A DNA stretch of 64,000 nucleotides from Halomonas sp. Y3. Lineage in GTDB: Bacteria > Pseudomonadota > Gammaproteobacteria > Pseudomonadales > Halomonadaceae. Both the position numbers and the translations under genes were made by a program. Shown here in pieces: positions 44,713 to 49,453 of this stretch. The DNA lies in assembly GCF_024137965.1 (NCBI RefSeq), contig NZ_CP099975.1, positions 3,782,001 to 3,846,000 on the forward strand. Reading direction: 5' to 3'. The notes below the pieces were generated by a model. It did no database searches, had not been told where the DNA came from, and worked only from the letters and a program-made list of their open reading frames with translations. Position 1 is the first letter of the stretch; each line of letters opens with the position of its first letter.

Positions 44713-46097
44713 GGTAGTGTCCCGTCAAGTGGTGTAACAGCGGGTGAGGCCACCGCGGCCTTCGCTGACTGTTACGCCGCCTCCTCGTGAATCAATTGTT
44801 CGGCGCCTGCCTCAGTCGGCTCCTTGAGCACCGGGGCCAGGCTCTCCAGGCTCAGGTACCGGCGGCTGACTTGCCATTCATCGTTCTGCTCCAGCAGTAC
44901 CGCTCCGACCAGGCGCGTCACCGACGCGTTGTTGGGGAAGATCCCGACGACGTTGCTGCGCCGTTTGATCTCCTTGTTCAGCCGCTCCAAGCAGTTCGTG
45001 GACGCCAACTTCGGCCAGTGATCTTTCGGGAAGGCCATGAACGCCAGCACGTCCTCCTCGGCGCTATCCATGCAGTCCGCCGCCTTGGCGAAACGCTCAC
45101 GCAGGCTGTCGGCCACCTGCCGCCACTGGCGCGTCGCTGCGGCTTGATCCGGCTGGGCAAAGGCCGTGCGCACCGCCGCCGAGATCGCTGGCTGGTGGGC
45201 CTTAGGGACCTGCGAGAGCACGTTGCGCATGAAGTGCACTCGACAGCGTTGCCAGCCCGCCCCAGTCAGTACCGTCGCGATCGCCTTTTTCAGCCCCTCG
45301 TGAGCGTCGGAGATGACCAGGCGAGTGCCCTTCAGCCCCCGGGCCACCAGCGAGCGTAGGAACGCCGTCCAGAAGCCCTCCGTCTCAGCCGGACCTGCGG
45401 AGAGGCCCAGCACCTCACGGTAGCCGTCCTGATTCACCACCGTGGCCACCACCACCGCCTGGCTCGCTACCGGGCCGTGCTCTCGACTCTTGATATAGGT
45501 CGCGTCGAGCCATACGTAGGGCCAGTGCCCCTCCAGCGGCCGCTCCAGGAAGCTTTGGACGCGCTCATCGATCGAGGCGCACAGTCGGGAGACCTGCGAC
45601 TTGGAGATCCCGGTCATCCCCATGGCCTGGACCAGCTCGTCGACCTTACGAGTGGAGATGCCCTGCACGTAGGCCTCCTGCACCACCGCCGTGAGCGCTT
45701 GCTCGCTCATCCGCCGCGGCTCGAGGAAGCCGGGGAAGTAGCTGCCCTGGCGGAGCTTGGGGACCTTGAGATCCACTCGGCCCATACGCGTCTCCAACGG
45801 CCGCTCCCGGTAGCCATTGCGCCGGTTGACCCGCTCCTCGGAGCGCTCGTGGCGATCGGCCCCGCACAGCTCGGCCACCTCGTGCTCCATCAGCTCCTGG
45901 AGCATGAAGTCCAGCGTCTCACGCAGGAAGTCCGGTGCCACCGCTCGCTTTTCAAGCAGCTCCGTCAGTGCCATGCTCTTGTTGGTCATCGTGGGGTTCC
46001 TTCGGTTGGTTGCGTGTTTGGCGACTTGCAACTTTATCGAAGGCCCATGGTGACCTCATCCTCCCGTCTGAATTACACCTCTTCCCGGGACGTTACC
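44713..46097 (-). mobile_element. IS256-family insertion in IS3 orfB
   Basis: A 1385-bp element. Ends are imperfect inverted repeats (GGTAGTGTCCCG, later GTGGTGTAA, and the right end GGTAACGTCCCG, later GAGGTGTAA). An 8-base direct repeat GGCAGCCC flanks it at 44705-44712 and 46098-46105. This is typical IS256 behaviour and the element appears intact. Confidence 0.93.
44772..45989 (-). CDS. IS256-family (Mutator-type) transposase
   Basis: A 405-residue transposase. DDE residues are in '[15 protein letters not shown]', '[16 protein letters not shown]' and '[16 protein letters not shown]', with the family motif '[16 protein letters not shown]'. The ATG at 45989 ([14 protein letters not shown]) has AAGGAA upstream. 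No frameshift was seen. Confidence 0.95.
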
Positions 46098-46544
46098 GGC
46101 AGCCCATGCCGTGAGTTCGTGGTGGCCTTGTACTTACGAGCTGCCTTGGCCCGCAGATTCTGGCGCCGAAGGCTTGCCGCCACGGTATTGCGGGAGATGG
46201 CGACCCCGGCATCATTCAGGTCGTGGGTCAGCCTGGGGGCGCCTGAGCGCCCCTTTTGCTGCTGAAAGGCCAATGCCACACGCTGGTCGGTGATGACCTG
46301 CTGGCGGCGCCGCGGGGACGGTTTGCCACCGCGCTGTCGCCAAGCATAGTAGCCGCTACGTGCCACACCGAGGACAGCGCACATTCGCTGGATACTGAAT
46401 GCCTGATGGTGCTGATGGATGAAGGCGTACTTCACTTCAGGCTCTTCGCGAAGTACACCGCGGCCTAATGGAATGGTCCGCCCCGCCTTAGCTACCCTTG
46501 GGGGCGTCCCCATCAAGACTGGAGCAACATCAGGAGGGCGAACC

Positions 46545-47576
46545 ATGTCCATTGCAACCATCGGCATCGACATCGGCAAGAGCAAGTTTCATGTCTGCGG
46601 CCTCGATGAACGCGGCCATGTGACGCTACGCAAAATGTTCTCCCGTACGGCACTCATCCGATTTCTGGCCAATACGCCGCCTGCCCGTGTTGCCACCGAG
46701 GCCTGCGCCGGCGCCCACTTCATTGGCCGCAAGGCCGAATCCTTCGGCCACGAGGCCCGGCTGCTACCCGCTCAGTATGTCAAGGCCTATGTGAAATCTC
46801 AGAAAAACGACTACGCCGACGCCGAAGCTATTGCCGAAGCAGCGACACGGCCCACGATGCGCTCGGTGCCCGTCAAGCCTGCCGACCGCCAGGCACTACA
46901 GCTCCTGCATCGGCAGCGCAGCGGCTGGATCGCTGAGCGTACAGCGCTTGCCAATCGCATCCGCGCCATGTTGCTGGAGTTTGGCATCACGATCCCCAAG
47001 AACCTCTCACAGCTGCGCAAGCAACTGCCTTTGGTAATCGAGGATGCCGAGAATGAGCTGCCGGACCGGCTACGCCAGCTCCTCGTGGAGCTGTGGGAGG
47101 ACATGATACGCCTGGACGAGCGGCTCACGTCACTCAATGCGGAACTCGACATTTATGCGCGCACGGATCCTCAAACGAAACTCCTGCTGAGCATCCCCGG
47201 TGTTGGCCCTATTGTCGCCACGGCGCTGATTTCCGGCATCGGCAATGCCGGCGCTTTTCGCAAAGGCCGGGACCTTGCCGCCTGGCTGGGCCTGGTGCCA
47301 CGACAATACAGCACTGGTGGCAAGACGCGGCTGCTGGGGATCGGCAAGCGCGGCAACCGTCACTTACGCATGCTACTCATCCATGGGGCTCGCGCCGTGC
47401 TCCGAGTCATCAGCAACCGCCAAGAGGATGACGGACTTCGACGCTGGGTCGAACGTGTCACAGCGCGCAAGCACCCGAACGTAGTCGCGGTGGCCCTGGC
47501 CAACAAGATTGCGCGGGTTGTCCATGCTGTACTGCGTCATCAGGTCCCCTTTGAAGCACGGTTGATAAGTTCTTGA
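46545..47576 (+). CDS. IS110/IS1111-family transposase (DEDD)
   Basis: A 343-residue recombinase. The RuvC-like N-domain starts MSIATIGIDIGKSKFHVCG (first Asp), followed by 'VATEACAGAHFI' (Glu) and 'KNDYADAEAIAEAATRP' (Asp pair). The C-domain has 'LLSIPGVGPIVATALIS' and the Ser-containing 'VPRQYSTGGKTRLLGI'. GGAGG precedes the ATG. Intact. Confidence 0.95.
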   Translation: MSIATIGIDIGKSKFHVCGLDERGHVTLRKMFSRTALIRFLANTPPARVATEACAGAHFIGRKAESFGHEARLLPAQYVKAYVKSQKNDYADAEAIAEAATRPTMRSVPVKPADRQALQLLHRQRSGWIAERTALANRIRAMLLEFGITIPKNLSQLRKQLPLVIEDAENELPDRLRQLLVELWEDMIRLDERLTSLNAELDIYARTDPQTKLLLSIPGVGPIVATALISGIGNAGAFRKGRDLAAWLGLVPRQYSTGGKTRLLGIGKRGNRHLRMLLIHGARAVLRVISNRQEDDGLRRWVERVTARKHPNVVAVALANKIARVVHAVLRHQVPFEARLISS

Positions 47577-47847
47577 ATTCAAGCGTGCAAGAGGTTCAAA
47601 ACTTGTTTTTCAGGGAGTTAGTTCCCACCGAGTGAATGCAAGCGCCGGAAATTGATGGCGGAAACAGGTCACCGGCATATCGAGAGCCTGGTCAAAAAAG
47701 CGGCCCGTACAGAGGTCAGCGGCTTATTCAGGAACGGTATGCGCGGATCTCCATCGTGGCCCGGGAGCGTCCACGACGGTCCCATACAGAGGTCGGATAC
47801 ATTAGCGCAATCCTGTCCCCGTCACAGTAGAAGGCACTTGCATCACA
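47577..47847 (+). ncRNA. probable guide (seekRNA/bridge RNA) region of the IS1111 element
   Basis: About 270 bases with no gene lie between the transposase stop and the right subterminal repeat, whereas the left non-coding end is only about 60 bases. In IS1111-group elements the long non-coding region after the transposase encodes the target-selecting RNA. Two similar 13-14-base motifs, CCGTACAGAGGTC (near 47704) and CCATACAGAGGTC (near 47780), may belong to it. The RNA itself is inferred. Confidence 0.5.
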
Positions 47848-48294
47848 GGGGCGGACCATACATTTTTGTTATGGCCAGTTCCTCTGACATTTCAGCGAGT
47901 TGCCGCTTCAGCCGGGCGTTTTCATCAGCCAGTGATTGCTCGCGCTCGGAGGTGTTCTTCTTCTGTTGGGCCTTGGCGCGCCACTGATAGAGTTGGCTGG
48001 GCTGCAGGCCCAGCTCACGGGCGGCAGCGGCAGTGCCCACTCGGTCAGCGAGGGCAAGAGCTTCCTCGCGGTAGGCGTCGGAGTAACGGGCACGGGTCTT
48101 CTTCATCGGGGTAGCTTGCTTGGCCATGGGTCACCTCGTTGAGTGTACTACCTTCACGGGGTGTCCACTGTTGCTGGGCAAGATCACATGCGGATCTGGT
48201 AGCCCTCACGGGCACCTACAACAACCTGGTGAGAATGTGGTCGGAGTGTTGATATGAATTGAAAATGGCTTCACGAGTAGACTGTTTCGACTTG

Positions 48295-48321
48295 ACCGGC
48301 GCTGAAAGGCGCCGGTTTTTT
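48295..48321 (+). terminator. rho-independent terminator (plus direction)
   Basis: ACCGGCGC, a six-base loop and GCGCCGGT run into six T. It points rightward, but no complete plus-strand gene lies upstream, so it may be left from a gene lost during IS insertion. Confidence 0.7.
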
Positions 48322-48334
48322 CATCCTGCCAGCC

Positions 48335-49453
48335 TCAGTGCGGAACGAACCGAAGCAGCAAATAGGCCCCCAGCAAGCTGATGAACAGCATCGGTATCGA
48401 CCAGGCATGGAAGGCCACCCAGAGCCCCTGCTGGCGGCTGAGTCGCAGGGCGATCAGATTGGCAAGCGAGCCGATGGCAAGACCGAAGCCGCCGACGTTG
48501 ACGCCCCAGGCCAGCCAGTACCACTGCTCGGAGAAGGGTGCCAGGAAGATGGCCGCCGGCACGTTGGAGATCAGCTGCGAGAGCAGCGCCGCCCCGGTGA
48601 CCTCACCTCCGGGCAGGGCAATGAGTCCATCGGCTACCTTCATCATGAAGGGCAGCTGGGCAAGCAGGCCCAAGTCGATGAACATCAGGATGAAGATGGC
48701 CAGAATCAGCCAGTCCACTCCCAGCAGCACCTGCCGCCAGCAAAGCAGGAACAGTGCCAGCACCCCGGCAAGCGCCGGTAGCGTCAGCCCGAACTCCACC
48801 AGCAACAGGAACACCGGGTAGCAGAGCAGCGAGACGCGAAACAGCCGGCTGTGAACGTAGGTGCGCGTCATGTCCATATTCACGTCCACTCGACGGCCGG
48901 GAAAGGCGACGGCGGTCAGCAGCAGCAGGACCCCAAGCATCCAGCCGGCGATGGGCAGCATGGCCAGGAGGAAGGTGATGAAACTGTCGCCCGATAGCTG
49001 CCACAGAAAGAGATTCTGCGGATTGCCGATGGGGCTGACCGCCGAGCCGGCGTTCACCGCCAACGCTTCGAAGATGATCAGGCGACCGATGGGCAGCCGC
49101 GCCATGTTGCCGAGGCTGACGGTCAACGGCACGACGATGAAGAGCGCCACGTCGTTGGTGATCACGGCGGACAGCAGCGCGGCGAAGAGCACCATGGCTA
49201 GGGCCAGCCGACGTTCGCTGTGCATGTGTACCAGCAGCCAACGCCCGGCCTGCGCCAGCGCGCCGCTGTCTTCCAGCCCGCGGCTCAGCACCATCAGGCC
49301 GGCCAGGATGGCGATGGTATGCCACTCGACCAGCTGGGGCAGCAGGCGCCACTTCTCCGGCATCATGGCAATCAAGGCCAGAAACGCCAGCACCAGCGCC
49401 AGCAGCATCAGGTCCTCGGAAAGGCGGGAATATACGTAGCGCAGCAGTCTCAA
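48335..49453 (-). CDS. SLC13/ArsB-type anion permease, last gene of the iron operon
   Basis: A 372-residue, 10-11-helix permease of the ion-transporter superfamily. 'ALLSAVITNDVALFIVVPLT' and 'VNAGSAVSPIGNPQNLFLW' are the paired Asn-Asp and SPIGNPQN helical-hairpin motifs. It carries an anion or organic acid; which one is unknown. The start overlaps the ferredoxin stop as ATGA. It could export an iron chelator or import an iron-chelate anion (guess). Confidence 0.83.
   Translation of the reverse strand: MRLLRYVYSRLSEDLMLLALVLAFLALIAMMPEKWRLLPQLVEWHTIAILAGLMVLSRGLEDSGALAQAGRWLLVHMHSERRLALAMVLFAALLSAVITNDVALFIVVPLTVSLGNMARLPIGRLIIFEALAVNAGSAVSPIGNPQNLFLWQLSGDSFITFLLAMLPIAGWMLGVLLLLTAVAFPGRRVDVNMDMTRTYVHSRLFRVSLLCYPVFLLLVEFGLTLPALAGVLALFLLCWRQVLLGVDWLILAIFILMFIDLGLLAQLPFMMKVADGLIALPGGEVTGAALLSQLISNVPAAIFLAPFSEQWYWLAWGVNVGGFGLAIGSLANLIALRLSRQQGLWVAFHAWSIPMLFISLLGAYLLLRFVPH

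Follow-up and report, generated by a model that had tools for sequence, protein, structure and literature searches.

RNA-guided insertion systems of this kind are already known, having been described in 2024. Guides for the target were shown in IS1111 elements by the seekRNA study (Siddiquee et al., 2024; PMC11187229). In the IS1111 seekRNAs that it describes, the complement of the target top strand comes first and is followed by the match to the bottom strand; a promoter is formed at the joined ends of these elements. The bridge RNA of IS621 carries a target loop and a donor loop with a shared core in one RNA (Durrant et al., 2024; PMC11208160). ISEc21, a member of the IS110 family, is also RNA-guided and inserts into IS3-family elements; its RNA is located before tnp and its IS3 site comprises the codons around the second catalytic D (PMC11187229).

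The window, by which we mean the whole analyzed stretch of 64,000 nucleotides from Halomonas sp. Y3, harbors an element comparable to ISEc11, ISKpn4 and ISPa11. With those three (PMC11187229) it shares a DEDD transposase of about 340 aa, subterminal repeats, 7/3 extensions, an RNA after tnp, here a predicted one, and the order of the guide strands; their joined-end promoter may have a counterpart in a promoter-like site at its computed junction. Unlike them, it targets the end of an IS3-family orfA. Moreover, a donor loop is visible in its RNA, of which we met no description in the accessible part of the seekRNA study (PMC11187229). Just like the bridge RNA of IS621 (PMC11208160), a single RNA would combine target and donor loops with a shared core, but the RNA of the window element lies at the right end and its proposed core is only one base. 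With ISEc21 it shares the RNA guidance, proposed in its case, and the insertion into IS3-family elements, although the two differ in family, in the position of the RNA and in the IS3 site. We consider it highly probable (roughly 0.88) that the locus is an IS1111-group insertion sequence with a two-loop guide RNA in its 3' non-coding region, the proposed joining and promoter steps included.

The element and the interrupted IS3

An intact IS1111-group element occupies positions 46466-47862 on the plus strand, as defined by its repeats, by its joined flanks compared with an intact IS3 copy, and by its relatives. It is the only full-length copy in its own genome. The earlier note had recognized an IS1111-group element with 12-base subterminal inverted repeats, with which the exact repeats and the transposase profiles agree, but had set its outer limits one base too low, at 46465-47861. 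The 12-bp inverted repeats, ATGGTCCGCCCC on the left (46473-46484) and GGGGCGGACCAT on the right (47848-47859), match exactly and lie within the 11-13 bp of IS1111 elements. Comparison with relatives places a left extension, TAATGGA (46466-46472), and a right extension, ACA (47860-47862), outside of them. Because of a T-run at the junction, a left extension of seven bases is ambiguous with one of six, which would give the limits 46467-47862 (6/3 instead of 7/3); either pair of lengths is found in the IS1111 family.

Between the repeats, tnp (46545-47576) encodes a DEDD transposase of 343 aa, inside the 330-350 aa range of the IS1111 family. Profiles identified both domains, PF01548 (DEDD_Tnp_IS110, 2.9e-22) and PF02371 (Transposase_20, 2.1e-24), as well as the NCBIfam model of RNA-guided IS110 transposases (NF033542, 5.5e-103). 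Residues 249-258 in the C-terminal part, GLVPRQYSTG, correspond to GL-P----S/TG, the motif that marks the IS1111 family in the seekRNA study (PMC11187229). The nearest solved structure chains are those of ISCro4 and IS621. Weak matches of the transposase (46545-47576) to a model of TIGR-Tas endonucleases (NF052498, E 1.6e-5, well short of its cut-off) and to a TasH chain among the solved structures (E 0.016) agree with the published link between IS110 and TIGR-Tas. Downstream of tnp, a long non-coding region (47577-47847) that is kept in relatives and would hold the guide RNA comprises 271 bases, in line with the approximately 270 estimated before.

The element has split a minus-strand IS3-family element: on one side lies orfA (47863-48127), with its A-run at 47863-47867, and on the other the start of the orfB region (46098-46465), both recognized by profile and by alignment with an intact copy. 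This second IS3 copy in the same genome is uninterrupted at the site and 97-99% identical over three aligned pieces. It reads CATAACAAAAAAGGCCGCGG at the site, and the insertion point was therefore placed within the A-run; the target sequence predicted for the window element is GCGGCCTTTTTTG. The target was thus rightly named beforehand as the A-tract at the end of an IS3-family orfA. We take this A-run to be the frameshift signal of IS3. In the window, the element is followed by five T, one fewer than expected from the intact copy and the guide. The missing base is most simply attributed to slippage in the T-run, a 6/3 element being a possible alternative. For two relatives, the joined flanks equal uninterrupted IS3 copies in other genomes (e.g. 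L107, L111 and L128 for L007; L112, L120 and L127 for L006), which confirms 7/3 ends without duplication for L007 and L006 only.

A further element, of the IS256 family (44713-46097, transposase 44772-46031), lies inside orfB of the same IS3. It is flanked on both sides by the 8-base repeat GGCAGCCC, and its terminal repeats are imperfect (20/26). With the IS256-family and IS1111 insertions, the IS3 of the window is therefore interrupted twice.

A predicted target loop that follows the flanks of its element

Relatives were searched in the family, order and class, in a set of one genome per species, among viral contigs and among plasmids. Loci were kept if their transposase matched over at least 250 aa, 10 that merely repeated an element already represented having been left out beforehand. 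After 14 loci were dropped (12 without a repeat pair, two at a contig edge), 47 elements with both ends were obtained. Dropping L021 and L091, whose flanks are identical to those of another element, gave 45; L045 was left out with an unusable right end. As the 45 elements are mutually related, some of them closely (e.g. L058/L059; L013/L014/L022), the permutation figures below overstate independence, above all for the donor guides. The close relatives, with 79-81% protein identity, come from Halomonas beimenensis, Billgrantia desiderata, Chromohalobacter nigrandesensis and another genome of the same family (L009). A relative from an uncultured Halomonas is 95% identical over the best segment and lacks the right end. 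The scan of viral contigs yielded 11 loci, all at 24-48% identity. Searched against a phage collection, the non-coding region had no match, and against plasmids it had one partial match; no Rfam family was found in 46000-48400 at E up to 1.

The consensus fold of 13 relatives contains 41 pairs, for 17 of which one or more sequences carry changes in both partners, so that the structure the earlier note had proposed to look for in the 3' region is found as a consensus. In this fold, two putative target guides face each other across an internal loop, on which single-sequence folds of five relatives agreed only in part. By folding energy, the core RNA does not stand out (z -0.14, 82/200 shuffles as good), and the whole non-coding region does so only modestly (z -2.47).

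Fold and consensus fold place the stems closing the target loop at 47672-47691 (5' arm) and 47729-47746 (3' arm). Scoring of flanks against RNA points to a right-side guide, UCAAAAAA (47692-47699), which pairs with the T-run right of the element, and to a left-side guide, AGCGGCUU (47718-47725), which consists of AGCGGCU and the core U. AGCGGCU has the same sense as the left flank, and its pairing includes one G.U. The guides are separated by an inner hairpin, GCGGCC...GAGGUC (47700-47717). The order known from seekRNAs, the complement of the top strand followed by the match to the bottom strand, is thereby found by sequence in these elements, and so is the target loop of bridge RNAs with left and right guides around a core. 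Two strands of the first loop would bind the target, an A-rich one pairing with the T-run to the right of the insertion point and one of 7 nt pairing, to the left of it, with the opposite DNA strand.

The flanks of each of the 45 elements were scored in the seekRNA order against its own RNA and every other element's RNA. The own RNA scored 12.61 as opposed to 10.98 for the others, which none of 10,000 permutations reached, and it ranked first for its own flanks in 27/45 elements. With the wrong strands, the score dropped to 10.87 (828/10,000 permutations), the own RNA being first in 2/45. A reversed, IS110-like order was weaker but not null (11.67, 0/10,000, first in 9/45). An unconstrained scan likewise gave 0/5,000 for each flank on the correct strand and 1568/5,000 and 2923/5,000 in the strand controls. 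We also anchored the left guide as the 7-mer 3' of the inner hairpin in ten elements; L005 carries the guide of the window element and lacks the right end. The mean match to the own left flank was 5.20 of 7, compared with 2.34 for those of other elements (n=10; exact permutation 4/3,628,800). In nine of these elements no other guide surpassed the own one, which was only tied in L008 and L009; in L046 it failed. L008 and L046 fit their own left flanks poorly, and the left flank of L034 does not match its guide.

The most obvious match between RNA and flank lies elsewhere. Directly after the A-run guide, the RNA reads GCGGCC (47700-47705), identical to the left flank, and the earlier note had proposed to look for pairing with the GCGGCC side of the junction. 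As a left guide, however, this candidate was rejected: GCGGCC is kept in relatives whose left flanks differ widely or are unrelated, and it pairs with GAGGUC as a hairpin stem, four stem pairs of the consensus fold including changes on both sides. Read from this comparison, the left guide is the 7-mer further 3', AGCGGCU, and GCGGCC is a conserved stem. That so conspicuous a match proved a coincidence could suggest that all agreement between RNA and flanks arose by chance and that the region holds no guide. The permutation tests with their strand controls contradict this idea, which we regard as scarcely credible. The predicted pairing of RNA and target is beyond chance, and the guide RNA candidate of the earlier note stands, with loop segments pairing with the target here and in other copies. 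Since comparison with related elements indicates that the guide match is real, the target would be readable from the RNA.

A putative donor loop for the ends of the element

The stem motif of the target loop recurs in a second loop as a direct repeat (47704-47717 / 47781-47794). In this putative donor loop, donor scoring placed a right-side guide, UCUCCAUC (47748-47755), in which UCCAU pairs with ATGGA of the left end, and a left-side guide, GGAUACAU (47795-47802), which holds ATACA of the right end and the core T. Between them, the direct repeat and the consensus fold delineate an inner branched stem (47758-47794). A guide RNA had been foreseen for target pairing, a second loop for the element's own ends had not; such own-end matches were found.

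Among the 45 elements, the right end plus the core base forms nine distinct 6-mers. The 6-mer is present in 41/45 own RNAs and in 6/360 foreign comparisons, all nine types having at least one own match, and its reverse complement occurs in 6/45 RNAs. The right donor guide is looser, with 31/45 own and 71/360 foreign matches and 6/9 types. The joint donor score averaged 11.58 against 10.10 when shuffled and exceeded its own shuffled mean in 45/45 elements, compared with 40/45 for the reversed order and 27/45 for the wrong strands; these donor counts are not independent events because ends and RNAs are inherited together. The donor loop known from bridge RNAs is thus matched strongly for the right end plus core and more loosely for the left end. 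In the consensus fold, a conserved GAUGG pairs with CCAUC from the right donor guide, which may therefore have to open. Furthermore, the left extension and the right flank start with an identical base in 39/45 elements, 10,000 shuffles reaching at most 32, which indicates a one-base core. We propose that the core of the window element is the single base T with which TAATGGA begins. In L085, L087 and L088, the left-end core base is not identical to the base that opens the right flank. The donor guides of L087 and L088 agree here with the right flank (C) and not with the left end (T), which would fit an alteration of the left junction.

Could only the first loop work, as a short seekRNA? The second would then be a processing signal or an evolutionary relic, and the protein would recognize the ends via the inverted repeats. 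In the seekRNA study, an 82-nt seekRNA sufficed to move ISEc11 and outperformed the long form (PMC11187229), and the looseness of the right donor guide would fit as well. A relic, however, would drift, whereas the left donor guide tracks the right end and core in 41/45 elements, against 6/360 foreign comparisons. The authors of the bridge RNA study also predicted donor-binding nucleotides in IS1111 members, inspecting single elements manually (PMC11208160); our donor evidence draws on 45 related elements. We therefore judge a function of the first loop alone to be unlikely. The target loop and the match of the donor loop to the element's own joined ends lead us to read the RNA as a two-loop bridge RNA/seekRNA.

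According to this two-loop reading, the second loop, with its repeat of the stem motif, would bind the element's own joined ends, UCCAU pairing with the left end and AUACA plus the core U with the right end. The DEDD transposase, presumably bound to the RNA, would then join the circular element and the target by recombination at the shared single base, here T. Circle closure would also assemble a promoter, TTGCAT-17-CATAAT, from which tnp and the RNA could be transcribed. Joining the ends computationally brings the -35-like TTGCAT (47838-47843) in front of CATAAT, which is composed of CA (47861-47862) and TAAT (46466-46469). The promoter-like site at the junction exceeded its own shuffled mean in 45/45 elements (average 8.76 vs 6.27 of 12). 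That of the window element scores 8/12, with 3/6 in the -35 box, and would fail a stricter scan rule, by which no promoter-like or terminator-like site was found in the linear sequence 46400-47900.

Apparent preference for the end of IS3 orfA

In the close group, all seven elements with a right flank (the window element, L006, L007, L008, L009, L011 and L034) are inserted close to the end of an IS3-family orfA. The IS3 family was assigned by profile for six of them, L034 barely exceeding the Pfam threshold; for L008, it was assigned only because its reading frame resembles the one found with L006. L009 is inserted in T6 of the coding strand in the opposite orientation. A more distant element, L044 (61% identity), is also located near the end of an IS3-family orfA. 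In L005, the reading frame in the left flank had no IS3 match; the best was IS481 (E 0.012). Throughout the close relatives, an A-rich right guide is retained while the left guides vary. Their sites close to the orfA end fall mostly within the A-run.

We weighed a simpler scenario, in which the clade merely prefers T-runs and the ends of IS3 orfA just happen to be a repeated A-run in GC-rich genomes, the RNA not being specialized on IS3. L046, L067 and L068 (57-65% identity) indeed occupy T-rich sites outside IS3, T-runs are used by several more distant relatives too, and the predicted 13-nt target occurs exactly twice in the own genome, in the other IS3 copy and at one non-IS3 site. Such a preference does not account for the left guides, which fit the IS3 sequence beside the run (7/7 in L007, 6/7 in L006, and five plus two G.U in L044), nor for the seven of seven known right flanks of the close group. 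In L044, the right guide, UGGCAAAA, has changed together with its target. Mere preference for T-runs is thus a tentative alternative, with a real but minor claim. We lean, with limited confidence, toward the joint reading that a small IS1111 clade is an RNA-guided parasite specialized on IS3, with an A-rich guide on the frameshift run, the other guide mainly re-programmed to IS3 subgroups, and a donor loop under selection.

Members of the clade were found in Halomonadaceae and in a single Ectothiorhodospiraceae assembly, and a Burkholderia glumae plasmid carries a remnant. This right-end remnant (L063, 2441-2710 of NZ_CP100138.1) has the same UCAAAAAA guide and adjoins an IS3-family orfA, close to its end; its right flank starts with six T, and no gene is annotated at the match. 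Four more distant relatives at 43-57% identity (L023, L054, L055 and L067) have GC-rich left flanks and right flanks that start T-rich. The site of L055 resembles an intrinsic terminator, GCCCCACGCGGGGC followed by T-rich sequence, and terminators may be the preferred sites of these four.

The literature searched contained no IS1111 element aimed at the IS3 A-run, although the site may sit in supplementary target lists. The IS3 preference of the clade and the breadth of the donor-guide covariation look new. The relatives provide a natural series of guides and targets in which one guide is near-constant and the other variable, and 45 elements in which the donor guide tracks its own right end and core base, which makes the role of the long IS1111 RNA testable through swaps of matched guides and ends. 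If the joint reading is true, selection on the donor loop implies that the long IS1111 RNA, beyond the short seekRNA, is a working form. The insertions would presumably damage the IS3 elements that receive them, and the clade would exemplify mobile DNA that its RNA directs to a functionally constrained site in a second mobile element.
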